A stretch of DNA of 37,231 nucleotides, taken from the NCBI GenBank assembly GCA_963169165.1, contig CAUJFL010000369.1, positions 1 through 37,231 on the forward strand. The letters are read 5' to 3'. This document shows, one piece after another, positions 4,570 through 36,538 of the stretch. The notes under the pieces are model-generated. The model did no database searches. It had not been told where the DNA came from and saw only the letters and a program-made list of their open reading frames with translations. Each line of letters starts with the position of its first letter. Positions within the stretch are counted from its first letter, which is position 1. This DNA comes from Myxococcota bacterium (lineage in GTDB: Bacteria; Myxococcota_A; Polyangia; Polyangiales; Polyangiaceae). A program made the position numbers and the translations under genes.

Positions 4570-5946
4570 TCAGAAGAGGTAGCGCGCGCCCAGCGTGGCC
4601 TGGATGCGGGTCCACTTCTGATCGTCGACCTCGTTGGGATCGGTCGCGTTCGTGCGGAGCTTCTTGTCGCTGACCATCTGCGTGTACTGCACGGCCGCGT
4701 TGATGCCGACGTGAGGCGTCACGCGGTACTCGAGGAAGCCAGCCGCATCGAGGGCGAGGTTGCTGTACGCGGTGTCGCGCGGCGCGCCGTTGTCGAAGAC
4801 GGTCGGGGGAAAGTGGATGCGCGACACGCCGGCCGTCGCGTTGGCCAGCACCTTGCCGTTGAAGAAATACGCCAGGCTCGCGTAGCCGCGATCGCGCTGA
4901 TAGAAGTTGCCGATGTAGCTCTGCGTCCAGTCGCGGACGTAACCGAGCACGAACGACGACGGGTAGTTGCCGGGCGTGTCGTTCTTGGGGGGCGCCGACA
5001 GGTAGAACCGCGCCTCGGCCTGCGCGATGAACGAGTCGAAGTCTTGCTGGCCGCCCTTGTCGTTGAAGAAGGTCGAAGCCCAGCCCGCCGCCGCGAGGAA
5101 GCCGAAGCCGCTCGTGACGAGACCGTTCACGCCGACCACCGTCGACACCGCGTCGCCGTCGGTCTGCGTCGTCGTGCCCGCGGTGTAGCGGAGCATCGTG
5201 TAGGTCGACTGTGAGAAGATCGACGTGCGCGGCAAGAAGCGCCACGTGCTGGTCGTCGCGAGCTGGTGATTGAAGCTGTTCAGCGGGCGGAAGCGCTCTG
5301 CCTCGAAGTAGGAGTAGGCGACGTCGTAGCCGAACTTCCAGGCAAAGAGCCCGCCCCCCGGCGCCCACTGAAGCGCGGCGCCCGCGGTCGGGACGGTGCG
5401 GTTGTACGTCGCCGAGGGATCGCCGAGCGACGACGGCTGAATCGACCGACCGAGCGCGGCGTGCACGTCGCCGCTCCAGCGACGCCCTGGGCTGATCGCG
5501 AGCTTGGAGGCCGCGGTGATGCCGACGTTTCGAAACTTGCTGGGATCGTCGCCCGCCGCGGTGTTGAACCCCTTCATGTACTCGAAGTAGGTCGCGGCCA
5601 GCGTCGCGGAGAAGACGTAGGTCGGCGGGATCGGCGTCTGGCGTGGCGTCACCGTCAAGAACGGTGACAAAGTGAACACGAACGCGTCGCTGACCGGCTC
5701 GGACGGCGTGGTCGAGCCCGAGCGCAAGAAGAGGTTCGAGTCGTAGCCCACGCTCGCCGCGACGCCAGGGCTGAGCTTGTAGCGGTCGGTGTCGTAGCCC
5801 TGCCCGCTCGTGTAGCGGCTGTCCCGCATCCAGGGCTGGCTGAACGGGGGCGTCGCGAGCCCCTTCATGTCCTGCGCGGCGGCCGTTCCCCCGGTGAGGA
5901 GGGCACCTAGCCCAAACAGCGCACAGTGCGTCGCTCGTCGATTCAT
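4570..5946 (-). CDS. Outer-membrane beta-barrel, probable partner of the OPX lipoprotein
   Basis: A 458-residue protein with a signal peptide (cleavage probably after TAAAQ, about residue 25) and many alternating amphipathic strands with aromatic girdles. The mature part contains the VGYDSNLFLR phrase common in myxobacterial exopolysaccharide-locus barrels, and it ends in GARYLF with a C-terminal Phe, the usual beta-signal for outer-membrane insertion. The OPX lipoprotein gene starts 10 bases downstream. In M. xanthus, pairs of this kind (EpsX/EpsY type) form the outer-membrane channel for polysaccharide. I infer the same job here from family style and gene adjacency. The substrate cannot be read from this locus. 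A general porin is the alternative. Confidence 0.82.
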   Translation of the reverse strand: MNRRATHCALFGLGALLTGGTAAAQDMKGLATPPFSQPWMRDSRYTSGQGYDTDRYKLSPGVAASVGYDSNLFLRSGSTTPSEPVSDAFVFTLSPFLTVTPRQTPIPPTYVFSATLAATYFEYMKGFNTAAGDDPSKFRNVGITAASKLAISPGRRWSGDVHAALGRSIQPSSLGDPSATYNRTVPTAGAALQWAPGGGLFAWKFGYDVAYSYFEAERFRPLNSFNHQLATTSTWRFLPRTSIFSQSTYTMLRYTAGTTTQTDGDAVSTVVGVNGLVTSGFGFLAAAGWASTFFNDKGGQQDFDSFIAQAEARFYLSAPPKNDTPGNYPSSFVLGYVRDWTQSYIGNFYQRDRGYASLAYFFNGKVLANATAGVSRIHFPPTVFDNGAPRDTAYSNLALDAAGFLEYRVTPHVGINAAVQYTQMVSDKKLRTNATDPNEVDDQKWTRIQATLGARYLF

Positions 5947-20166: not shown

Positions 20167-20376
20167 TCAGCCCTCGGGCGCGTCGTCGTCGACGAGCGAG
20201 AGCGCGTGGCGCGGGCAGCGCACGACGGCGACCCGCGCGCGCTCGAGCGCCTCGCCCTCGGGCCGCTCGACCAGCACGTGCATCATGTCGTCTTCGTCGA
20301 CCCGGAAGACGTCGGGGGCGGCCCGCACGCAGATCGCGTTCCCTTCGCAGCGGTCCCAGTTCACGAGGATCTTCAT
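20167..20376 (-). CDS. P450-type [3Fe-4S] ferredoxin
   Basis: A 69-residue single-cluster ferredoxin. The cluster motif is C10-E-G-N13-A-I-C16 ... C54-P, with Asn at the position where four-iron ferredoxins carry the second Cys. Three Cys plus a non-Cys residue there is the pattern of the small [3Fe-4S] ferredoxins that feed electrons to bacterial cytochromes P450. Other family marks are APDVFRVDEDD and RCPRHALSL. FdxD (Rv3503c) in the mycobacterial cholesterol cluster is of this type. The ATG at 20376 starts at the conserved MKILVNWDRC; sequence upstream is not coding. A KstR-like palindrome lies 43-56 bases upstream. No P450 or ferredoxin reductase is in the window, so the partner is elsewhere. 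Confidence 0.92.
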   Translation of the reverse strand: MKILVNWDRCEGNAICVRAAPDVFRVDEDDMMHVLVERPEGEALERARVAVVRCPRHALSLVDDDAPEG

Positions 20377-20416: not shown

Positions 20417-20434
20417 TTTGAAACGCGTTTCAAA
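20417..20434. promoter_or_regulatory. 18-bp perfect palindrome, KstR-like operator
   Basis: TTTGAAACGCGTTTCAAA is a perfect inverted repeat. Its core 20419-20432 fits TnnAACnnGTTnnA, the KstR operator consensus, and also resembles GAAAC/GTTTC sites of other TetR lipid regulators such as PsrA. It lies in the divergent gap between the ferredoxin gene (start 20376) and the lipoprotein/FadL-like operon (start 20513), within a locally AT-richer stretch. The likely binder is the TetR protein encoded at 34866-35510. Confidence 0.72.
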
Positions 20435-26997: not shown

Positions 26998-27020
26998 CCC
27001 GCGCGATCAGATCGCGCGGG
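26998..27020. terminator. GC-rich hairpin between convergent genes
   Basis: CCCGCGCGATC, one A, then GATCGCGCGGG form an almost perfect inverted repeat, folding as a 9-10 bp stem with a 3-5 base loop. It lies between the convergent WS/DGAT and acyl-CoA ligase genes, overlapping the last codons of the ligase. There is no T-run on either side, so intrinsic termination is uncertain. Confidence 0.4.
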
Positions 27021-28554
27021 CTCTCCCCTGCCAGTAGGGATCGCGCAGCTTGCGCTTGTAGAGCTTGCCGTTGGGATCTCGCGGCATCTCGGTCGTGAAG
27101 TCGATGCTCTTCGGCACCTTGAACCTCGCGATCCTGTCGGCCAGGAACGCCGTCAGCTCGGCGGCCACCTCGGCGCTCGGCGCGACGCCCTCGGCCAGCT
27201 CGACGACGGCCTTGATCTCCTCGCCCCAGTCATCATTTGGCACGCCGAAGACGGCCGCGTCGAGCACCCTGGGGTGCGCGAGGATCGCGGCCTCGATCTC
27301 GGCCGGGTAGATGTTGACGCCGCCCGAGATGATCATGTCACTCTTGCGATCGACCAGGAACAGGAACCCCTCTCCGTCGAGGTAGCCGGCGTCGCCCACG
27401 GTGAAGAAGTCGCCCGACCACGACGAGTCGGTCTTCTGCTTGTCCTTGTGGTACTCGAATTTGTGCGCGCCCATCGACATGTAGACGGTGCCCACCTCGC
27501 CCGGAGCGCAGACGCTGCCGTCGTCTGCGCGGATCTCGAGCCGCGAGATCGGCCACGCCTTGCCGACCGTGCCAGGGTGCGCGCGCCAGTCGCCGGGGCT
27601 CGCGAGCGTTCCGCCGCCCTCGGACGCCGCGTAGTACTCCCAGATCGAGTCACCCCACCAATCCAACATGGCTTGTTTGACGTCGACCGGGCAGGGCGCG
27701 GCGCTGTGGATCGCGTGTCGAAACGACGAGACGTCGTGGCGCGCGCGCTCGGCGGGCGACAGCGACAGCAGCCGACGAAACTGCGTCGGCACCATGTGGG
27801 TCGCGGTGACCTTGTGCTTCGCCACCAGCTCCAGCATCCCCTCGGGGGTCCACTTGTCCATCAACACGACCGTGTGGCCGTTGTGCAGGTGGTTGGTGCA
27901 GAAGTTGAGGACGGCCGTGTGGTACAGCGGCGAGACGACCAGGTGGACGCCGTCGTGCGGGACGATGCCAAACAAACTCAAGAACTGAGCCTGCATCGTC
28001 GCGACGACCTCGGGCGCGACCTGCGCGAGCGGGCGGCGAACGCCCTTGGGTTTGCCCGTCGTGCCGGACGTGTAGGTCATCGGCGCGCCGGCCTGACGGT
28101 CGTCGGGCGCCGCCTCGGGTTGACCGTCGAGCAGCGCCTCGAGCGGGGCGAAGCCTGGGCAGGCTCCGGTCGCGAACCTGCGGTCGGTCGCCAGCCCCGC
28201 CTCGTCGGCCGCCTTGCCGACCGTGTCCGCGACGGGCGGCGACGCGATCACCAGCTTCGCCTCCGAGTCGGCGAGGATGTACGCGATCTCGGGCGCGGCG
28301 AGGTTGACGTTGATCGGCGTGTAGTAGACGCCGATCTGCGCGGTCGCCATGAAGAGCTCGACCACCGCGGCCTCGTTCTTCAGCACGACCGCGACGCTGT
28401 CGCCCCGCCCGACGCCGCGCGCGCGCAGGCCGTGAGCCAGGCGGTTGACCCGCGCGAGCAGGGCGCCGGCGGTCTGCGCCCGACCCTTCGCGTCGATGAG
28501 CGCCACGTGATCGGGGCGCTCGGCGGCGACCCTCCAGAAGCCGAGGTGGGACAT
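27007..28554 (-). CDS. Acyl-CoA synthetase (FadD-like, adenylate-forming)
   Basis: A 515-residue ANL-superfamily ligase that activates a carboxylic acid to its CoA thioester through an acyl-adenylate. The P-loop is MTYTSGTTGKPKGVRR; further core motifs are WEYYAASEGGGT, VGDAGYLDGEGFLFLVDRKSDMIISGGVNIYPAEIE (motifs VGDAGY and DRKSDMI with the hinge Asp/Lys) and PRDPNGKLYKRKLRDPYW with the catalytic C-terminal Lys. The YAASEGGG form and the DPYW ending recall actinobacterial FadD enzymes such as those acting on branched or steroid side chains; that substrate guess is inference. The ATG follows a GAGGAGCG ribosome-binding site. It is the last gene of the SCP2-MlaE-SDR-FadD series. Confidence 0.93.
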   Translation of the reverse strand: MSHLGFWRVAAERPDHVALIDAKGRAQTAGALLARVNRLAHGLRARGVGRGDSVAVVLKNEAAVVELFMATAQIGVYYTPINVNLAAPEIAYILADSEAKLVIASPPVADTVGKAADEAGLATDRRFATGACPGFAPLEALLDGQPEAAPDDRQAGAPMTYTSGTTGKPKGVRRPLAQVAPEVVATMQAQFLSLFGIVPHDGVHLVVSPLYHTAVLNFCTNHLHNGHTVVLMDKWTPEGMLELVAKHKVTATHMVPTQFRRLLSLSPAERARHDVSSFRHAIHSAAPCPVDVKQAMLDWWGDSIWEYYAASEGGGTLASPGDWRAHPGTVGKAWPISRLEIRADDGSVCAPGEVGTVYMSMGAHKFEYHKDKQKTDSSWSGDFFTVGDAGYLDGEGFLFLVDRKSDMIISGGVNIYPAEIEAAILAHPRVLDAAVFGVPNDDWGEEIKAVVELAEGVAPSAEVAAELTAFLADRIARFKVPKSIDFTTEMPRDPNGKLYKRKLRDPYWQGRARAI

Positions 28555-28566
28555 CGCTCGCTCCTC

Positions 28567-29319
28567 TCAGACCGACATCGCCATGTCGACGACGAGCGCC
28601 GTGCCGCTGATGTAGCTCGCGTCCGGGGACGCGAGGAACGCGATGGCGCCCGCGACCTCGTCGGGTGACGCGTAGTTGTCGACGATCGGCGCGATGCGCA
28701 CGAGCTGCCGCTGGCTGCCGCCCGGGGGCAGCGAGAACTGCCCGAGCATCGGCGTCTCGACGCCGCCGGGGCACACGCAGTTGATGCGGACGCCCTTGCG
28801 CGCGTACTCGACCGCGAGCGCCTTCGTCATCTGCACCACGCCGCCCTTCGACGCGCAGTACGCCGCGCTGTACGGGTGCGATTTCAGCCCCGCGATCGAC
28901 GCGGTGAGGATGATCGCGCCCTTCGTCGCGATCACGTGCGGCAAGGCGGCCTGCGCCATCAAGAACGAGCCGGTGAGGTTGATGGCGATCATCCGGCTCC
29001 ACTGCTCGAAGGTCACGTCCAGCGTGCGGTGAAAGCCGCCGACGCCTGCGACGTTGGCGAGCGCGTCGAGCTTGCCGAAGCTGGCGACGGCGAGATCGAT
29101 CGCCGCCCTCGCGGACGCGGGATCGGAGACGTCGCAGCGCGAGCTCGCGGCGTCGCCGCCCGCGTCGGTGATCTGCTTCACCGTCTCGGCCGCGCCGTCG
29201 ACGTTGACGTCGGTGACGAGCACCCTCGCGCCCTCGCTCGCGAACCTCTTCGCCGTCGCGCGCCCGATGCCAGAGCCCGCGCCGGTGACGACGACCGATT
29301 TGCCTTCGAATCGCTTCAT
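28567..29319 (-). CDS. Short-chain dehydrogenase/reductase (SDR)
   Basis: A 250-residue classical SDR. The nucleotide site is TGAGSGIGRATA, with VTDVNVDGA suggesting NAD preference because an Asp ends strand 2. The NVAG motif, the catalytic Ser in LTASIAG, and Tyr/Lys in YSAAYCASKGG are present, as is the substrate loop NCVCPGGVETPM. It probably oxidises or reduces a hydroxyl/keto group on a lipid or steroid-like acyl-CoA. The start at 29319 has GAGG 7 bases upstream and begins at the conserved MKRFEGKSVVVTG. It lies 71 bases after the permease gene and 12 bases before the acyl-CoA ligase gene, in a probable four-gene operon. Confidence 0.93.
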   Translation of the reverse strand: MKRFEGKSVVVTGAGSGIGRATAKRFASEGARVLVTDVNVDGAAETVKQITDAGGDAASSRCDVSDPASARAAIDLAVASFGKLDALANVAGVGGFHRTLDVTFEQWSRMIAINLTGSFLMAQAALPHVIATKGAIILTASIAGLKSHPYSAAYCASKGGVVQMTKALAVEYARKGVRINCVCPGGVETPMLGQFSLPPGGSQRQLVRIAPIVDNYASPDEVAGAIAFLASPDASYISGTALVVDMAMSV

Positions 29320-29390: not shown

Positions 29391-30224
29391 TCAGGCCGGG
29401 AAGATGATGACGCCGGCGCCCGAGATGAAGAAGTTCAGCATGATGACCGCGAGCGAGCAGCTGACGACCGCGCGCGTGGTCGCCCAGCCGACGCCCTCGC
29501 TGCCGCCGTACGTCGACAGCCCGCAGTAGCCCGCGACCACGGGGATGGCCGTCGAGTAGGCGAGGCACTTGGTCGCGCCGACCGCGATGTCGCCCCAGTC
29601 GACCAGCGCCGCGTTGAGGAACGTGCGCGGCGCGACGTCGAAGTACGTCGCCGCGACGAGCGTGCCGGAGGCGGTGGCCATCGCGCCGCCGCAGATGATC
29701 ACCGCCGTCGACATGACGATGCTCGCGAGCATCCGCGGCTTGATCAGGTAGTCGATCGGATCGGCGCCGCACATCCTGAGCGCGTCGACCTGCTCGGTCA
29801 CCATCATCGCGCCGATCTCGGCGGCGATGCCGGCGCCGACGCGCGTGGCGATCATCAGCGACGCGATCGACGCCGCGAGGTCGCGCACGAGCAGCTCGAG
29901 GTACATCGCGCCGAGCATCGTGAGATCGGGCACCACGCGGCTCGCCTGGATGCCGGCCTGGAACACGATGATGCCGCCGAAGAACCCCATCACGATGCAG
30001 ATGAAGAACAGCGATTTGTTGCCGATCTCGTACATGTAATGGGCGAGCGCGCCGGGCTCCTTCCGCCCGCGCACGACGTAGTAGAGCGTGCGGACGAACA
30101 CGCCGTAGATGCCGGCGAAATCGGCCCACACCTCGAGGCCAGCCTGACCGATCGCGCCGAGAGAAGCGGTGACGAAGCCCGCCTCGGGCTCGGCTCGGTC
30201 GATCGTGCTGGCGCTGTCGCTCAT
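29391..30224 (-). CDS. MlaE/YrbE-family ABC transporter permease, without adjacent partners
   Basis: A 277-residue permease of the MlaE/YrbE (Mce-associated) family with about five membrane segments. The family signature ATRVGAGIAAEIGAMMVTEQVDALRMCGADP is clear (key part GAGIAAEIGAMMVTEQVDAL), followed by DYLIKPRMLASIV. In lipid importers this subunit works with an MlaF ATPase and an MCE-domain (MlaD/Mce) protein. Neither is encoded here. The start overlaps the SCP2-like stop by 4 nt (ATGA), so the permease is co-translated with a lipid-carrier protein. In Mycobacterium the equivalent YrbE4A/B serve the Mce4 sterol importer. A lipid or sterol substrate is inferred from family and context. Confidence 0.92.
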   Translation of the reverse strand: MSDSASTIDRAEPEAGFVTASLGAIGQAGLEVWADFAGIYGVFVRTLYYVVRGRKEPGALAHYMYEIGNKSLFFICIVMGFFGGIIVFQAGIQASRVVPDLTMLGAMYLELLVRDLAASIASLMIATRVGAGIAAEIGAMMVTEQVDALRMCGADPIDYLIKPRMLASIVMSTAVIICGGAMATASGTLVAATYFDVAPRTFLNAALVDWGDIAVGATKCLAYSTAIPVVAGYCGLSTYGGSEGVGWATTRAVVSCSLAVIMLNFFISGAGVIIFPA

Positions 30225-30565
30225 TTTCCTGAGTTGGGCGGCAAGAAGGCTTGCATCTTCTGCGCGAGCATCACGTTACCCGAAACCTTGAGCAGGCCGC
30301 GCATGAACGCCATCGTGCCCCCGAGATCGCCGTTGACCATCTTGACGTAGTTCGGCGCGTCCATCTTGATGGTCGTGGTCGGCGACGCCGTCGTGCCCTC
30401 GTTGACCTTCATCGTGCCGTCGTCGAACTCGACGAACCAGCTGCCGCCGCCCTCGCCGGTCAGCTCGAATTGGAACGTCGCCTTCACGCCCTTCGCGGCG
30501 CTCGGGATGAAGCGCTCGTTCAACGTCTCGAAGTAGTGCTGCACGCTGTTGACCCGGATTCCCAT
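30221..30565 (-). CDS. SCP2-like sterol/lipid carrier domain protein
   Basis: A 114-residue single-domain SCP2 protein. The pattern is typical: N-terminal helices (VQHYFETLNERFIPSAAKG), then beta strands ATFQFELTGEGGGSWFVEFDDGTMKVNEG, TTTIKMDAPNYVKMVNGDLGGTMAFMRGLLKVSGNVMLAQKM, where the LLKVSGNVMLA segment is the standard SCP2 C-terminal signature. Such domains bind sterols, fatty acids or acyl-CoAs. The ATG at 30565 has AGGAG 9 bases upstream; the longer frame to 30640 would run through the operator and is rejected. It heads the minus-strand operon 49 bases from a KstR-like site, and is coupled to the permease gene. Confidence 0.9.
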   Translation of the reverse strand: MGIRVNSVQHYFETLNERFIPSAAKGVKATFQFELTGEGGGSWFVEFDDGTMKVNEGTTASPTTTIKMDAPNYVKMVNGDLGGTMAFMRGLLKVSGNVMLAQKMQAFLPPNSGK

Positions 30566-30613: not shown

Positions 30614-30627
30614 TAGAACATGTTTCA
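30614..30627. promoter_or_regulatory. KstR-like operator, site near the SCP2-like gene
   Basis: TAGAACATGTTTCA fits TnnAACnnGTTnnA at every specified base. It lies 49 bases upstream of the SCP2-like start, nearly the same distance as the palindrome before the ferredoxin gene (43 bases). The identical 14-mer recurs 45 bases away. Confidence 0.72.
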
Positions 30628-30658
30628 CTCCGACGGACAAGCCGGTTGACCGACGAAG

Positions 30659-30672
30659 TAGAACATGTTTCA
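30659..30672. promoter_or_regulatory. KstR-like operator overlapping the hydratase start
   Basis: A second copy of TAGAACATGTTTCA, identical to the site at 30614-30627 and 45 bases from it centre to centre (about four helical turns). It contains the ATG at 30665, so either that start is leaderless or the true start is GTG 30683 or GTG 30719. The pair could let two repressor dimers control both divergent promoters. Confidence 0.72.
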
Positions 30673-32707
30673 GTCACGCCCCGTGAGCGACGCCGAACGA
30701 GCCGAGCCCGAGCCCCTGGTGCTCGTCGAGCGCGAGGGCGCCGTCGCCGTCGTGACGATGAACCGGCCGCGCTACCGCAACGCGCAGAACATGGCCATGA
30801 CGTACGCGCTCGACGACGCCTTCGCGGCGCTCGTCGCCGACGACGCCGTCAAGGTGATCCTGCTCGCGGGGGCGGGCGATCACTTCTCGGCCGGGCACGA
30901 CATCGGCACGCCCGAGCGCGACATCCACAGGCCGTTCGACGCGCGCGCCACGGTCAAGTGGGAGCACGCCGAGCGCCAGGGCGCCGAGGGCATGTTCGTG
31001 CGCGAGGCCGAGGCCTACCTGGGGATGTGCCGGCGCTGGCGCGAGCTGCCGAAGCCCACTGTCGCGGTCGTGCAGGGCGCGTGCGTCGCCGGCGGGCTGA
31101 TGCTCGCGTGGTGCTGCGATCTGGTCGTCGCGGCCGACGACGCGTTCTTCGCGGACCCGGTCGTCAAGATGGGCATCCCCGGCGTCGAGTACTTCGCGCA
31201 CCCCTATGTGATGGGGCCGCGCTTCGCGAAGGAGCTATTGTTCACCGGCGAGCGCGTCGGGGCCGACCGCGCGCTCGCGATGGGGATGATCAACCGCGTC
31301 GTGCCCCGCGCGAGCCTGCGCGAAGAGGCGATGAAGCTCGCGGGCAAGATCGCCGAGATGCCCCGCTTCGGCTTGATGCTCACGAAGCGCGCCGTGAACC
31401 AGGCCGAGGACCGCATGGGCCTGCGCGACACGATGGACGCGACGTTCGGGCTGCACCACCTCGCGCACGCGCACAACGCGCTCTCGTCGCCCGACCACCT
31501 GCAGGGGCAAGACGCGAAGAGCATGGCGAAGGGGCTCAAGTTAGCGATGGACCTCGAGCTGTCGCCGAGCGAGCGCGCCTTCCGCGACGACGCGCGGCGG
31601 TGGCTCGCCGACAACGTGCCCGACGGCCGCCTCTCGGGCGACACGCCCGAGGGCTTTCGCGCGCTCCGCGCCTGGGAGAGGCTCCTGTTCGACGCGCGCT
31701 GGGCGGTCGTCTCGTGGCCTGAACAGTACGGCGGGCGCGGCGCGTCGGCGGTCGAGTGGCTGCTGTTCGAAGAGGAGTACTACCGCGCGGGCGCGCCGCA
31801 GCGCATCGCGCAGAACGGCATCTTCCTGCTCGCGCCGACGCTGTTCGAGTTCGGCTCCGACGAGCAGAAGGCGCGCGTGCTGCCGCGGATGGCGGCCGGG
31901 CTCGACGTGTGGGCGCAGGGCTGGAGCGAGCCGGGCGCGGGGAGCGATCTGGCGGGCGTCGCGAGCCGCGGCGCGCGCGACGACGCGCGAGGAGGCTGGC
32001 GCCTCACCGGCCAGAAGACCTGGTGCACGCGCGGCGCCTTCTGCGACTACCTGTTCGGATTGTTTCGTACGGATCCCAAGGCCGAGCGCCACAAGGGGCT
32101 CACGTACCTGATGGTGCCGCTCGACGCGCCGGGCGTCACGGTGCGGCCGGTCGGGCGGCTCGACGGCGAGCCAGGGTTCGCCGACGTCTTCCTCGACGAC
32201 GTGTTCGTCCCCGACGCCGACGTGATCGGCGAGCCCCACGAGGGCTGGACGGTCGCGATGACCACGGCGTCGTCCGAGCGTGGGCTCACGCTGCGGAGCC
32301 CCGGTCGCTACGTCGCCGCCGCCGCGCGCCTCGTCGAGCTCGTCCGCCGGCATCCCGGGGCGCACCCGTCGCTCCGCGACGCGGTCGCGCGTGTCCACAT
32401 GGAGGCCGAGGCCAACCACCTCTACACGCTGCAGACCGTGACGCGCGTGCAGAGCGGCGAGGCGCTCGGCGCGAGCGCGAGCATCAACAAGATCCTCTGG
32501 TCCGAGCTCGACGTCGCCTTGCACGACGCGGCGCTCGCGCTGCTCGGCGATCGCGCCGAGCTCATCGCCGGCGCGGGCCTCGCCGAGGACGACGGCGCGT
32601 GGATGAAGGGCTTTCAGTTCGCGCTCGCGGGCCCCATCTACGCCGGCACCAACGAGATCCAGCGCAACGTGATCGCCGAGCGACTGCTGGGGTTGCCGCG
32701 CAAATGA
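30665..32707 (+). CDS. Enoyl-CoA hydratase fused to acyl-CoA dehydrogenase
   Basis: One 680-residue frame. Residues about 18-292 form an enoyl-CoA hydratase/isomerase (crotonase): VVTMNRPRYRNAQN, oxyanion loop GDHFSAGHDIG, and GACVAGGLMLAWCCDLVVA. Residues 295-680 form an acyl-CoA dehydrogenase: N-terminal MDLELSPSERAFRDDARRWL, WSEPGAGSDLAGV (FAD/substrate loop), GQKTWCTRGAFCDY, and YAGTNEIQRNVIAERLLGLPR. The dehydrogenase part is of the FadE26/28-like subunit type that pairs with a second subunit, encoded next. The junction reads AAG TTA GCG ATG; an out-of-frame TAG (31542-31544) lies just before ATG 31547, so a single extra base could have joined two genes. The exact start is uncertain (30665, 30683 or 30719). 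Confidence 0.88.
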   Translation: MFQSRPVSDAERAEPEPLVLVEREGAVAVVTMNRPRYRNAQNMAMTYALDDAFAALVADDAVKVILLAGAGDHFSAGHDIGTPERDIHRPFDARATVKWEHAERQGAEGMFVREAEAYLGMCRRWRELPKPTVAVVQGACVAGGLMLAWCCDLVVAADDAFFADPVVKMGIPGVEYFAHPYVMGPRFAKELLFTGERVGADRALAMGMINRVVPRASLREEAMKLAGKIAEMPRFGLMLTKRAVNQAEDRMGLRDTMDATFGLHHLAHAHNALSSPDHLQGQDAKSMAKGLKLAMDLELSPSERAFRDDARRWLADNVPDGRLSGDTPEGFRALRAWERLLFDARWAVVSWPEQYGGRGASAVEWLLFEEEYYRAGAPQRIAQNGIFLLAPTLFEFGSDEQKARVLPRMAAGLDVWAQGWSEPGAGSDLAGVASRGARDDARGGWRLTGQKTWCTRGAFCDYLFGLFRTDPKAERHKGLTYLMVPLDAPGVTVRPVGRLDGEPGFADVFLDDVFVPDADVIGEPHEGWTVAMTTASSERGLTLRSPGRYVAAAARLVELVRRHPGAHPSLRDAVARVHMEAEANHLYTLQTVTRVQSGEALGASASINKILWSELDVALHDAALALLGDRAELIAGAGLAEDDGAWMKGFQFALAGPIYAGTNEIQRNVIAERLLGLPRK

Positions 32708-33696
32708 GGTTCGCGCTCTCCGACGAGCAGGTGCAGGCCGCGGCGTCGCTGCGCGGGCTGCTCGCGCGCGATTTCCCCGCGACGGCGCTGCGCGCGCGCT
32801 GGGACGGCGCGCCCGACGACGGCGCGCTCTGGTCGAGCCTCTGCGAGATGGGCCTGCCGTCGATGCTCGTGCCCGAGGCGCACGGCGGCCTCGGCGGCGA
32901 CGAGCTCGATCTCGTGTCGTTGCTCGAGGAGTGCGGGCGCGCCGCGGTCCCCGGTCCGATCGTCGAGACGTGCTGGGTCGCGCCGCGCTCGTTGTCCGCC
33001 GCGCGGCTCGGGGCGCTCGCGGCCGGCTCGCTGAGGGTCGCGTGCGGAGACGGCGAGGCGCCGCTGGTCGCCGACGCAGGCGAGGCCGACGTGCTCCTGC
33101 TGTGCCGCGGCGACGAGGCGTTCGCGCTCGACCGCGCCAGGGTAGAGCTGTCGGCGCGTCAGCCGTCGGTCGACGGCGCGCGCGCTCTCTTCGAGGTGCG
33201 CTGGGACCCGCGTGACGGCGAGGCGATCTGCTCGGCGGACGAGCTGCGCGCGCGGATGGCGTCGGGCCTCGCGGCCGTCTTGCTCGGGCTGTCGCGGCGG
33301 ATGCTCGACATGACGTCCGAGTATGTGCAGGTGCGCCGGCAGTTCGGCGTGCCGGTGGGCTCGTTCCAGGCGGTGAAGCACCCGCTCGCGACCGCGCTCG
33401 TGCGGCTGTCGGTCGCGCGCCCGGTGCTCCTGCGCGCGGCGTACTCGCTCGCGCGGCGCGATCCCGCCCGCGCCCGCCACGCGTCGATGGCGAAGGCGCT
33501 CGCGGCCGAGTCGGCGCTGCTCTCCGCCCGCGTCGCGCTGCAGGCGCACGGCGCGATCGGCTACTCGTTCGAGCACGATCTCCACCTGTTCATGAAGCGA
33601 GCTTGGGCCCTCTCGGCCGCGTTCGGCGGCCCGCTCGAGCACCGCGCGAAGATCGCGGCGCACCTGTTCGATCCACCCCCCACGGAGAACCCCTGA
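32704..33696 (+). CDS. Acyl-CoA dehydrogenase, second subunit (FadE27/29-like)
   Basis: A 330-residue acyl-CoA dehydrogenase-like protein, shorter than the usual 380. It keeps MRFALSDEQVQAAASLRGLL, the N-terminal helical domain, a compact middle domain, and the FAD-contacting RRQFGVPVGSFQAVKHPLA, then HGAIGYSFEHDLHLFMKRA at the C-terminus. It lacks the TNEIQRN motif that its neighbour carries. This split of features matches the alpha2-beta2 dehydrogenases of mycobacterial steroid side-chain degradation (FadE26-27, FadE28-29), where each active site is built from both subunits. The start overlaps the upstream stop (ATGA), in keeping with a stoichiometric complex. A steroid substrate is not proven. 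Confidence 0.9.
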   Translation: MRFALSDEQVQAAASLRGLLARDFPATALRARWDGAPDDGALWSSLCEMGLPSMLVPEAHGGLGGDELDLVSLLEECGRAAVPGPIVETCWVAPRSLSAARLGALAAGSLRVACGDGEAPLVADAGEADVLLLCRGDEAFALDRARVELSARQPSVDGARALFEVRWDPRDGEAICSADELRARMASGLAAVLLGLSRRMLDMTSEYVQVRRQFGVPVGSFQAVKHPLATALVRLSVARPVLLRAAYSLARRDPARARHASMAKALAAESALLSARVALQAHGAIGYSFEHDLHLFMKRAWALSAAFGGPLEHRAKIAAHLFDPPPTENP

Positions 33697-33698
33697 CC

Positions 33699-34850
33699 AT
33701 GGCCCAGGCCTACATCATCGACGCCGTCCGTACGCCGGTCGGCAAGCGCAACGGCTCGCTCGCGAAGATCCACCCGATCGATCTCGGCGCGCACGTCCTC
33801 TCTGCGCTGATGGAGCGCACCAAGGTCGATCCCGCCGCCGTCGAGGACGTCGTGATGGGCTGCGTCGACACGATCGGCCCGCAGGCGGGCGACATCGCGC
33901 GCAACTGCTGGCTCGCGGCGGGGCTGCCCGACGAGGTGCCGGGCGTCACGGTCGATCGCCAGTGCGGCTCGTCGCAGCAGGCGCTGCACTTCGCGGCGCA
34001 AGGTGTGCTGAGCGGCACGCAAGAGCTCGTCGTCGCGGCCGGCGTGCAGAACATGAGCATGGTGCCGATCGGCGCCGCGATGATCACCGGCAAGGAGTTC
34101 AACCTGCCCGAGCGCCTCTCCGGCTCGACCGGCTGGGTCAAGCGCTACGGCGACGGCCCCGTGTCGCAGTTTCGGTCGGCCGAGATGATCGCCGAGAAGT
34201 GGAACCTCTCGCGCGAGGACATGGAGCGCTTCGCCTTCGACAGCCACCAGCGCGCGGCACGCGCGGGCGACGAGGGGCGTTTCGCGCGGGAGATCGTGCC
34301 GATCGCGGGGCTGGCGGCCGACGAGGGTCCGCGCCGCGACACGACCCTCGAGAAGATGGCGACGCTGAAGACCATCGAGCCCGGCGGCAGGCTCACGGCC
34401 GCGCTCTCCAGCCAGATCTCCGACGGCGCGTCCGCCGTGCTGCTCGCGTCCGAGGCGGCGGTGAAGACCCATGGCCTGAAGCCGCGCGCGCGGGTGCACC
34501 ACCTGTCGGTCCGCGGGGCCGATCCCATCTGGATGCTGACCGCGCCGATCCCCGCGACGGCGTACGCGCTGAAGAAGGCCGGCATGACCATCGACCAGAT
34601 AGATCTCGTCGAGATCAACGAGGCCTTCGCGTCGGTCGTGATGGCCTGGGAGAAGGAGGCCGGCATCTCGCACGACAAGGTCAACGTCAACGGCGGCGCG
34701 ATCTCGCTCGGTCACCCGCTCGGCGCGACCGGCCTGCGCCTGATGTCGACCCTGCTCTGCGAGCTCGAGCGCAGCGGCGGACGCTACGGCCTGCAGACGA
34801 TGTGCGAGGGCGGCGGTCAGGCCAACGTGACGATCATCGAGCGACTGTGA
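33699..34850 (+). CDS. Acetyl-CoA acetyltransferase (thiolase, FadA5/FadA6-like)
   Basis: A 383-residue thiolase that cleaves 3-ketoacyl-CoA with CoA in the last step of beta-oxidation. The nucleophile is Cys89 in TVDRQCGSSQQALHFA. The NEAFASV segment, the His in GHPLGATGLRLM and the second Cys in TMCEGGGQANVTII complete the active site. The start ATG 33699 follows the dehydrogenase stop by 2 bases and has GGAG about 11 bases upstream; the longer frame starting at 33603 is within the previous gene. Length and the CEGGGQAN form fit the degradative thiolases found with FadE pairs in actinobacteria. Confidence 0.96.
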   Translation: MAQAYIIDAVRTPVGKRNGSLAKIHPIDLGAHVLSALMERTKVDPAAVEDVVMGCVDTIGPQAGDIARNCWLAAGLPDEVPGVTVDRQCGSSQQALHFAAQGVLSGTQELVVAAGVQNMSMVPIGAAMITGKEFNLPERLSGSTGWVKRYGDGPVSQFRSAEMIAEKWNLSREDMERFAFDSHQRAARAGDEGRFAREIVPIAGLAADEGPRRDTTLEKMATLKTIEPGGRLTAALSSQISDGASAVLLASEAAVKTHGLKPRARVHHLSVRGADPIWMLTAPIPATAYALKKAGMTIDQIDLVEINEAFASVVMAWEKEAGISHDKVNVNGGAISLGHPLGATGLRLMSTLLCELERSGGRYGLQTMCEGGGQANVTIIERL

Positions 34851-34865
34851 GATAAGAGGCGGCGC

Positions 34866-35510
34866 ATGCCTGAGCCTCGACAGACCCGGCGCAGCGCGAC
34901 CAAGGGCAAGGTCAGCCGCCGCGACACCATCATGGACGTCGGCATCGCGCTCGCCGAGGCTGGCGGCTACGACAACGTGCGGCAGCGCGAGGTCGCCGAG
35001 CGCGCCGGGATCGCGCTCGGCACGCTGTACAAGAGCTTCCGCAGCAAGGAGGACATCCTCGTCGCGGCGCTCGAGCGCGGCGCGAAGGATCTCGAGACCC
35101 GCCTCGCGAAGCAACCGTCGAAGGGGCGCACGCCCGAGGCCCGCGCGAGCGCGCTGTTCGCGACGATGACCGCCGGGCTCATGGCGCGCCCCAATTTCGC
35201 GCGGGCCGTGCTGCGCGCCATGGCGTCGGGCGAGCCCGAGGTCGCCGGCAACATCGCGTCCTACTATGGCCGGATGAGCGGCCTCGTCATCGCGGCGCTG
35301 CGGGGCAAGGGCGTGCTCGACGACACCGACGGCGCGCCGACCGACGCCGAGACGACGCTGTCGTCGCTGCTCCTGCAGATCTGGTTCGCGTCGCTCGTGG
35401 GCTGGTCCGCGGGGCTGACCGACGAGGCGGGCGTCGCGTCCCGCGTCGAGGGCGCGGCGCAGCTGCTCGCGAAGGCGCTGTCAGACAAACCAAAGAAGAG
35501 GGACACATGA
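34866..35510 (+). CDS. TetR-family regulator, KstR-like
   Basis: A 214-residue TetR regulator. The N-terminal helix-turn-helix (about 20-66) reads RRDTIMDVGIALAEAGGYDN, VRQREVAERAGIALGTLYKSF, RSKEDILVAAL. From memory, this resembles mycobacterial KstR (GGY, VADRA, VGTLYRYF, SK..LLVSAL) more than generic TetR proteins. The C-terminal ligand domain (about 90-205) is helical and hydrophobic. It is preceded by AAGAGG 6 bases before the ATG and overlaps the next gene by 4 nt. As part of the operon whose promoter carries two KstR-like sites it is probably autoregulated. KstR responds to a cholesterol-derived CoA thioester; a CoA ligand here is an inference. Confidence 0.92.
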   Translation: MPEPRQTRRSATKGKVSRRDTIMDVGIALAEAGGYDNVRQREVAERAGIALGTLYKSFRSKEDILVAALERGAKDLETRLAKQPSKGRTPEARASALFATMTAGLMARPNFARAVLRAMASGEPEVAGNIASYYGRMSGLVIAALRGKGVLDDTDGAPTDAETTLSSLLLQIWFASLVGWSAGLTDEAGVASRVEGAAQLLAKALSDKPKKRDT

Positions 35511-36538
35511 AGCTCGGCCTGATGATGGGGTACTCCGGTGCCCAGGTTTCGATCGACATCGAGATGATCAAGGAGGCCGAGCGCCTCGGCTACGACTCGG
35601 TCTGGACCGCCGAGGCGTGGGGCTCCGACGCGGTCTCGCCCCTCGCGTGGGTAGCGGCGCAGACCACCAAGATCCGCCTCGGCACCGGCATCATGCAGCT
35701 GCCCGGGCGCTCGCCCGCCAACACCGCGATGACCGCGATGACGATGGACGCCCTGTCGAAGGGCAGGTTCATCCTCGGGCTCGGCACGTCGGGGCCGCAG
35801 GTGGTCGAGGGCTGGCACGGCGTGCCGTTCGGCAAGCCGCTCACGTGGCTCAAGGAGTACGTCGCCATCGTGAAGCAGATCCTCGCGCGCGAGGCGCCGC
35901 TCACGTTCGACGGCGAGCGCTACCAGATCCCGTATCGTGGCCCGGGCGCGACGGGCCTCGGCAAGCCGCTGAAGAGCATCCTCCACGGTAGCAAGAGCAT
36001 CCCTATCTACACGGGCTCGATGGCGCCGAAGAGCCAGGCGTTCGCGGCCGAGCACGTCGACGGCTTGTTGCTGACCTGCATGCACCCCGAGCGCTTCGAC
36101 GTGCTGAAGCCCAACCTCGACGCGGGCTTCGCCGCGAGCGGCGGCAAGAAGAGCCTCGCGAACTTCGACGTCGCGCCGACGGTGGCGGTGATCATCGGCG
36201 ACGATCTCGACGCTTGCCGCGGCCCGCTGAAGGCGAGCCTGTCGCTCTGCATCGGCGGCATGGGCGCGAAGGACAAGAACTTCTACGCCGACTACATCCG
36301 CAAGATCGGCTTCGAGGCCGAGGCCAACAAGATCCAGGAGCTGTACCTCTCCGGCAAGAAGGGCGAGGCGATGGCCGCCGTCCCCGACGCGCTCGTCGAC
36401 GCGCTGCACCTCGTCGGCCCGAAAGAGCGCATCCGCGATCGTTTCCAGGCGTGGAAGGCGTCGCCGGTCGGCACGATGATCATCGGCGCGATGCAGCCCG
36501 AGGCGATCCGCCTCGCGGCAGAGCTGGCCGCGGGATAG
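35507..36538 (+). CDS. LLM-family oxidoreductase (Rv3520c-like, F420-type)
   Basis: A 343-residue luciferase-like monooxygenase family protein. It begins MKLGLMMGYSGAQ and has WTAEAWGSDAVSPLAW, IRLGTGIMQLPGRSPANTAM, GRFILGLGTSGPQVVEGWHG, and a GATGLGKPLKSI loop. This combination closely resembles the actinobacterial group annotated as F420-dependent, including Rv3520c in the mycobacterial cholesterol cluster. Whether this enzyme uses F420 or FMN cannot be told from sequence; F420 synthesis genes are not in the window. The start overlaps the TetR stop (ATGA), so it is the last gene of the plus-strand acyl-CoA operon. The reaction is unknown. Confidence 0.92.
   Translation: MKLGLMMGYSGAQVSIDIEMIKEAERLGYDSVWTAEAWGSDAVSPLAWVAAQTTKIRLGTGIMQLPGRSPANTAMTAMTMDALSKGRFILGLGTSGPQVVEGWHGVPFGKPLTWLKEYVAIVKQILAREAPLTFDGERYQIPYRGPGATGLGKPLKSILHGSKSIPIYTGSMAPKSQAFAAEHVDGLLLTCMHPERFDVLKPNLDAGFAASGGKKSLANFDVAPTVAVIIGDDLDACRGPLKASLSLCIGGMGAKDKNFYADYIRKIGFEAEANKIQELYLSGKKGEAMAAVPDALVDALHLVGPKERIRDRFQAWKASPVGTMIIGAMQPEAIRLAAELAAG

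Follow-up and report, generated by a model that had tools for sequence, protein, structure and literature searches.

The stretch of DNA analysed here (the window, 37,231 nucleotides) carries, in the promoter region between two divergent sets of lipid and acyl-CoA genes, a palindrome that occurs twice, and the question raised by this locus is whether the two copies belong to a circuit of the type of KstR, the cholesterol-catabolism repressor known from mycobacteria. The preliminary description had proposed such a circuit and had supposed the host to be a myxobacterium; the host assignment held, with Polyangiaceae bacterium SJ398 as the nearest named relative. We consider it highly probable (about 0.88) that both copies are operators of the KstR-type repressor encoded at 34866..35510 (plus strand) and that this repressor governs a steroid catabolic regulon.

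Both copies read TAGAACATGTTTCA on the plus strand, operator A at 30614..30627 and operator B at 30659..30672, and the start-to-start distance of 45 bp and the fit to TnnAACnnGTTnnA at 8 of 8 fixed positions are as previously described. The consensus had also been quoted correctly, the same core TnnAACnnGTTnnA being given by Kendall et al. 2007 (PMC1995591), where the motif of the kstR promoter is TAGAAC(N2)GTTCTA. Three sites of this type were found in the window in comparison to a mean of 0.04 in shuffled sequence; the third, TGAAACGCGTTTCA at 20419..20432, had not been listed before and stands 42 bp ahead of a short gene (20167..20376, minus strand) for a 69-aa protein, which no family model matched and which was judged ferredoxin-like from its sequence and the 49% match of its counterpart in genome G035. 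When all window positions were ranked with a weight matrix built from the 47 mycobacterial KstR sites listed in PMC1995591, operators A and B came first and the 20419 site third; A and B scored 25.1, a higher score than that of 12 among the 16 M. tuberculosis sites of the list, in comparison to 5.7 for the next window position after the three sites. In a sister species of the same genus (G001), both operators are conserved at 14 of 14 positions and the 45-bp spacing is kept, with diverged intergenic flanks.

The operators had been placed between the SCP2-like gene and the hydratase-dehydrogenase gene, a location that stands except for the start of the latter, since the ATG at 30665 chosen by the ORF finder is overlapped by operator B and the in-frame GTG at 30683 is thus the likelier start. 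Two -35-like hexamers sit between the operators and face outwards. The leftward one, TTGTCC at 30635..30640 (minus strand), starts 13 nt before operator A and is a weak match to the consensus, and the rightward one, TTGACC at 30646..30651 (plus strand), starts 13 nt before operator B, is conserved in G001, and is followed after 17 nt by a predicted -10, TTCAGT at 30669..30674 (plus strand), which overlaps operator B. These putative boxes were placed by positional enrichment only, and no promoter was recovered when the divergent region was scanned with the sigma-70 consensus. The enrichment was calculated for 22 operator-gene pairs of the window genome and G001 in which the operator ends no more than 14 bp from the start of the gene; some of these pairs are orthologous between the two species, so that the 22 are not independent. 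TTG was found at positions -14 to -12 in 9 of the 22, compared with a background of 1.6%, and a T two bases past the operator in 17 of the 22, while the window genome alone has TTG at 4 of the 10 promoters counted. The simplest reading is that of two back-to-back promoters, each with an operator that lies between the -35 and the -10 and overlaps the -10, which would account for both the operator pair and its 45-bp spacing. The same layout, with a spacing of 46 bp, was found at the KshA2/EchA19 promoter of the same genome (locus L007), and an operator between -35 and -10, overlapping the -10, was reported for the kstR promoter (Kendall et al., PMC1995591). Many operators of the promoter-proximal set end 3 to 12 bp ahead of the start codon, with no Shine-Dalgarno sequence to be seen there, suggesting that the genes of the regulon are likely to have leaderless messages, as far as can be judged from sequence.

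Operator A is assigned by its position to the leftward set on the minus strand, which comprises an SCP2 sterol-carrier-like protein (30221..30565, ATG at 30565, Pfam PF02036), a MlaE/YrbE-type lipid ABC permease (29391..30224, TIGR00056), a short-chain dehydrogenase (28567..29319), and a FadD4-like acyl-CoA synthetase (27007..28554). The permease stands alone, with no adjoining Mce proteins, and four MlaD/Mce-domain genes were found on other contigs, so that sterol import may be encoded elsewhere. The rightward operon on the plus strand consists of an enoyl-CoA hydratase/acyl-CoA dehydrogenase fusion (30665..32707, or from GTG 30683), an IpdE2-like acyl-CoA dehydrogenase (32704..33696, NF050027), a thiolase (33699..34850, above the cut-off of PRK07801), the KstR-like TetR repressor that is proposed to bind the operators (34866..35510), and an F420-dependent oxidoreductase of the Rv3520c family (35507..36538, above the cut-off of TIGR03559). 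The TetR gene is thus the fourth gene of the operon, as had been noted; in the window genus it has no operator of its own and depends on the operon promoter. The hydratase-dehydrogenase fusion is a single 680-aa frame, which the G001 counterpart matches at 91% identity over 680 aa.

To place the operator in the rest of the genome, which is an incomplete MAG, we searched it by pattern with the reversed pattern as control, and the tight form TRRAACRYGTTYYA was found 18 times in comparison to 1 for the control, and the loose pattern 38 times in comparison to 12. The sites are spread over some fifteen contigs, and according to gene calls from our own script (a gene finder seeded with amino-acid frequencies) no site in the window genome or G001 is farther than about 125 bp from a gene start. 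Nearly all copies stand at the starts of steroid-catabolism genes, for the rings as well as the side chain, among them KshA, recognised by its KshA_C domain, and the target promoters carry TnnAACnnGTTnnA. One operator lies between KshA1 and a divergent alpha/beta-hydrolase gene that is followed by CofG and CofH of F420 synthesis (locus L005, contig C33, 2937-5311, both above the NCBIfam cut-offs), so one operator serves both the hydrolase and KshA1; the regulon further contains F420-dependent enzymes. Another, in locus L007, stands between KshA2-HsaA-HsaC-HsaD-HsaE-HsaG-HsaF and the divergent EchA19. Further sites were found at KshA3; at KstD, a second KstD-like flavoprotein, and a KshB-like reductase; at a short-chain dehydrogenase (PRK07831) with two MaoC-type proteins and an F420H2 quinone reductase; at another short-chain dehydrogenase (PRK07856) with a P450, and at a second P450; at a GMC oxidoreductase and an aldehyde dehydrogenase; at EchA20-IpdA, IpdB, and an IpdC-like protein; and at DUF35-like proteins, two lipid-transfer thiolases (Ltp), FadD, and FadE. 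The window itself adds the ferredoxin-like gene 20167-20376 and the locus of operators A and B. The names IpdB, IpdC, and DUF35 come from operon order and a reading of the sequence, as no family model named these proteins, and the label ACAD for two proteins of these loci was rejected, L005_4 being CofG and L007_7 being MutY. The sole site with no evident link to the pathway is on contig C289. In G001 the same genes stand behind the same sites, with 75% to 94% identity, and the 53 sites of G035 were found at KshA, KshB-like, KstD-like, SCP2, FadD, lipid-transfer, and DUF35-like genes. In locus L017 (1096-2658), EchA20 and IpdA are fused into one frame of 520 aa followed by IpdB, and the fusion is kept in G001. 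At position 5690 of locus L024, a looser site, TGTAACGTGTTCCA, stands 9 bp before a 550-aa gene that is followed by an acyl-CoA dehydrogenase-like gene, and the 550-aa gene is likely to belong to the regulon as well, although the tight pattern does not capture it.

The preliminary description had called the TetR protein KstR-like, and by profile, PDB sequence, and fold KstR is indeed its nearest characterised relative. Its best NCBIfam match is KstR with 105.5 bits in comparison to 36.7 for the next family, and its best PDB sequences are those of KstR (E about 2e-18). The AF2 model of the protein (pLDDT 92) has the KstR fold, with Z scores of 22.6 to 24.5 to eight KstR entries, 22.0 to the Rhodococcus TetR 3bjb, and at most 16.2 to all others. 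The identity to M. tuberculosis KstR is about 27%, with 23 of 49 positions identical in the helix-turn-helix and 26 of 131 elsewhere in the protein. The score of 105.5 bits is far under the curated equivalog cut-off of 280 of the KstR model NF033703, so that KstR-type is the right term while the name KstR is not established. An unlikely alternative is that the protein is a general fatty-acyl-CoA sensor, similar to FadR or PsrA, with the steroid genes being incidental members in some genomes. The window operon would agree with this, as it encodes general beta-oxidation enzymes, and the PsrA box C/GAAAC(N2-4)GTTTG/C overlaps TGAAACATGTTTCA, which we counted in its favour. Genome G006 points the same way, since it has a TetR gene with an operator upstream and 24 tight sites in comparison to 2 in the control but neither KshA nor HsaA; none of its sites adjoins a steroid gene, and about eight are within genes and few at gene starts. 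In addition, the first description of M. tuberculosis KstR itself presented it as controlling a broad lipid regulon (PMC1995591). The TetR-type FadR of Bacillus and Thermus does share with this system the TetR fold, an acyl-CoA ligand (predicted for the present protein), and beta-oxidation targets, but FadR folds gave Z scores of only 15 to 16 in comparison to 23 to 24 for KstR, the Bacillus FadR model NF053878 gave 30.4 bits, below its curated cut-off of 200 and far less than the 105 bits for KstR, and most of the regulated promoters drive the steroid-specific genes KshA, KstD, HsaACDEGF, and IpdAB.

The phylogeny bears on a second alternative, a very improbable one, according to which the entire system was recently acquired from an actinobacterium or sits on a contig that contaminates the MAG. 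Many of the enzymes do exceed the cut-offs of models named after or seeded with M. tuberculosis proteins (F420_Rv3520c, PRK07799), but the sites lie on many contigs and recur at the same genes in G001 as well as in other families of the order. In a tree made with a quick method and no sure root, the actinobacterial KstR and its kin are split from the myxobacterial proteins by a branch with 99% support and a length of 0.69, which argues for a deep sister lineage and against a recent transfer of KstR. On its sequence, the window TetR is a member of this deep sister lineage and not a certified KstR; an old transfer from actinobacteria may have taken place.

A third and very improbable alternative is that the operators are real and bound by another regulator of the genome. 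Other TetR genes are present, one of which (locus L017, 324-950) adjoins an operator, and some TetR-positive genomes have no sites, but in G001 the same promoter lacks this neighbour, and the KstR-like TetR, the sole TetR examined in this respect, tracks the motif across genomes. The protein was found in 12 of 59 related genomes, and at least 8 tight sites were found in 8 of these 12 in comparison to 0 of the other 47 (Fisher p = 2.2e-7), which have 0 to 2 sites each; the four TetR-positive genomes with few or no sites have TetRs that are 38% to 45% identical. In 80 TetR loci (835 kb), which were found with the TetR alignment and come nearly all from myxobacterial MAGs, 80 tight sites were counted and none for the reversed pattern, and in 36 of the 80 a tight site stands at most 160 bp directly upstream of the TetR match, the corresponding operator in the window being that of the operon promoter. 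Four actinobacterial homologues that exceed the KstR cut-off NF033703 have the upstream operators TAGAACGTGTTCTA, TAGAACATGTTCTA, or TAGAACATGTTTCA, the last of which, at one KstR gene, is letter-identical to that of the window. A KstR-type circuit in a myxobacterium, which had been called unexpected, is thus supported by operators at the steroid genes, operators upstream of the TetR genes in relatives, and a site abundance that tracks the presence of the TetR. A chance or compositional origin of the repeated 14-bp palindrome is refuted, as AT-rich palindromes can recur between genes but the shuffle and reversed-pattern controls were near zero and the copies are conserved between species.

Regulation by the KstR-type repressor therefore remains our preferred reading, and from the computed operators, their genome-wide placement and conservation, the joint occurrence of operators and TetR gene, and a protein fold like that of KstR, we infer the following mechanism. 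The repressor would bind physically to one box at each of the two back-to-back promoters, and as the box overlaps the predicted -10, the bound repressor would exclude RNA polymerase; with its own gene in the rightward operon, it would also repress itself. The same operator would control about 17 promoters in the genome, which would make up a regulon for steroid, probably sterol, catabolism, and a steroid-derived acyl-CoA would most likely release the repressor. The known KstR was solved with 3-oxo-4-cholesten-26-oyl-CoA. Similar to KstR (Rv3574) of M. tuberculosis and M. smegmatis (PMC1995591), the present system has an operator TnnAACnnGTTnnA with the half-site variants TAGAAC and TGAAAC, an operator over the (here predicted) -10, predicted autoregulation, a divergent promoter with two operator copies, a regulon for ring and side chain, and a regulator for which KstR is the nearest PDB fold. 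The key differences are that the present regulator is distant in sequence and below the NCBIfam cut-off, that its gene is inside a beta-oxidation operon, that the regulated genes are scattered over many loci, and that the same operator stands on KstR2-type and F420 biosynthesis genes. In mycobacteria the last-ring genes are under KstR2 (PMC3068626), and their counterparts EchA20 and IpdA/IpdB also occur here, but they stand behind a KstR-type operator. No separate KstR2-type regulon was detected at the last-ring genes, EchA20-IpdA having a KstR-type site, and the KstR2-type motif ANCAAGNNCTTGNT, an approximate consensus, gave 3 matches in comparison to 2 for reversed controls, which is no excess.

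We advance more tentatively, at slightly less than even odds, that steroid catabolism under a KstR-type operator code is ancient and common to Actinobacteriota and Myxococcota, that the 14-bp operator was retained as the repressors drifted to about 27% identity, and that one myxobacterial repressor combines the roles of KstR and KstR2 with control of F420 synthesis; if so, the F420 cofactor needed by some of the pathway enzymes would be made under the same repressor as these enzymes. KstR has been described as a regulator of actinomycetes, and the open-literature papers searched report KstR-type systems only from actinobacteria. Surveys of the 9,10-seco pathway detected it in Actinobacteria and Proteobacteria only, with myxobacteria unmentioned (PMC5790920; PMC4810484), and our search of open-licence PMC papers for the degradation of steroids or cholesterol by Myxococcota returned nothing relevant, which is not proof of novelty. 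The present results indicate that several families of uncultured myxobacteria hold a complete-looking steroid pathway with a KstR-type regulon. In Myxococcota, steroid regulons and unknown genes of the pathway can be sought simply by searching for the operator, and the system allows one to test directly how an operator code persists while its repressor diverges.

Some individual records may be mentioned. MAGs assigned to Acidimicrobiia (L150) and Chloroflexi (L151) encode KstR-like proteins with 171 and 188 bits, respectively, with no operator within the fetched flanks. The TetR of locus L139, from a MAG record titled Klebsiella pneumoniae, groups with the myxobacterial ones, and the record name is probably wrong. 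Genome G050 has two KstR-like TetR genes (loci L038 and L046), each with its own operator 27 to 79 bp upstream, and two HsaA genes.
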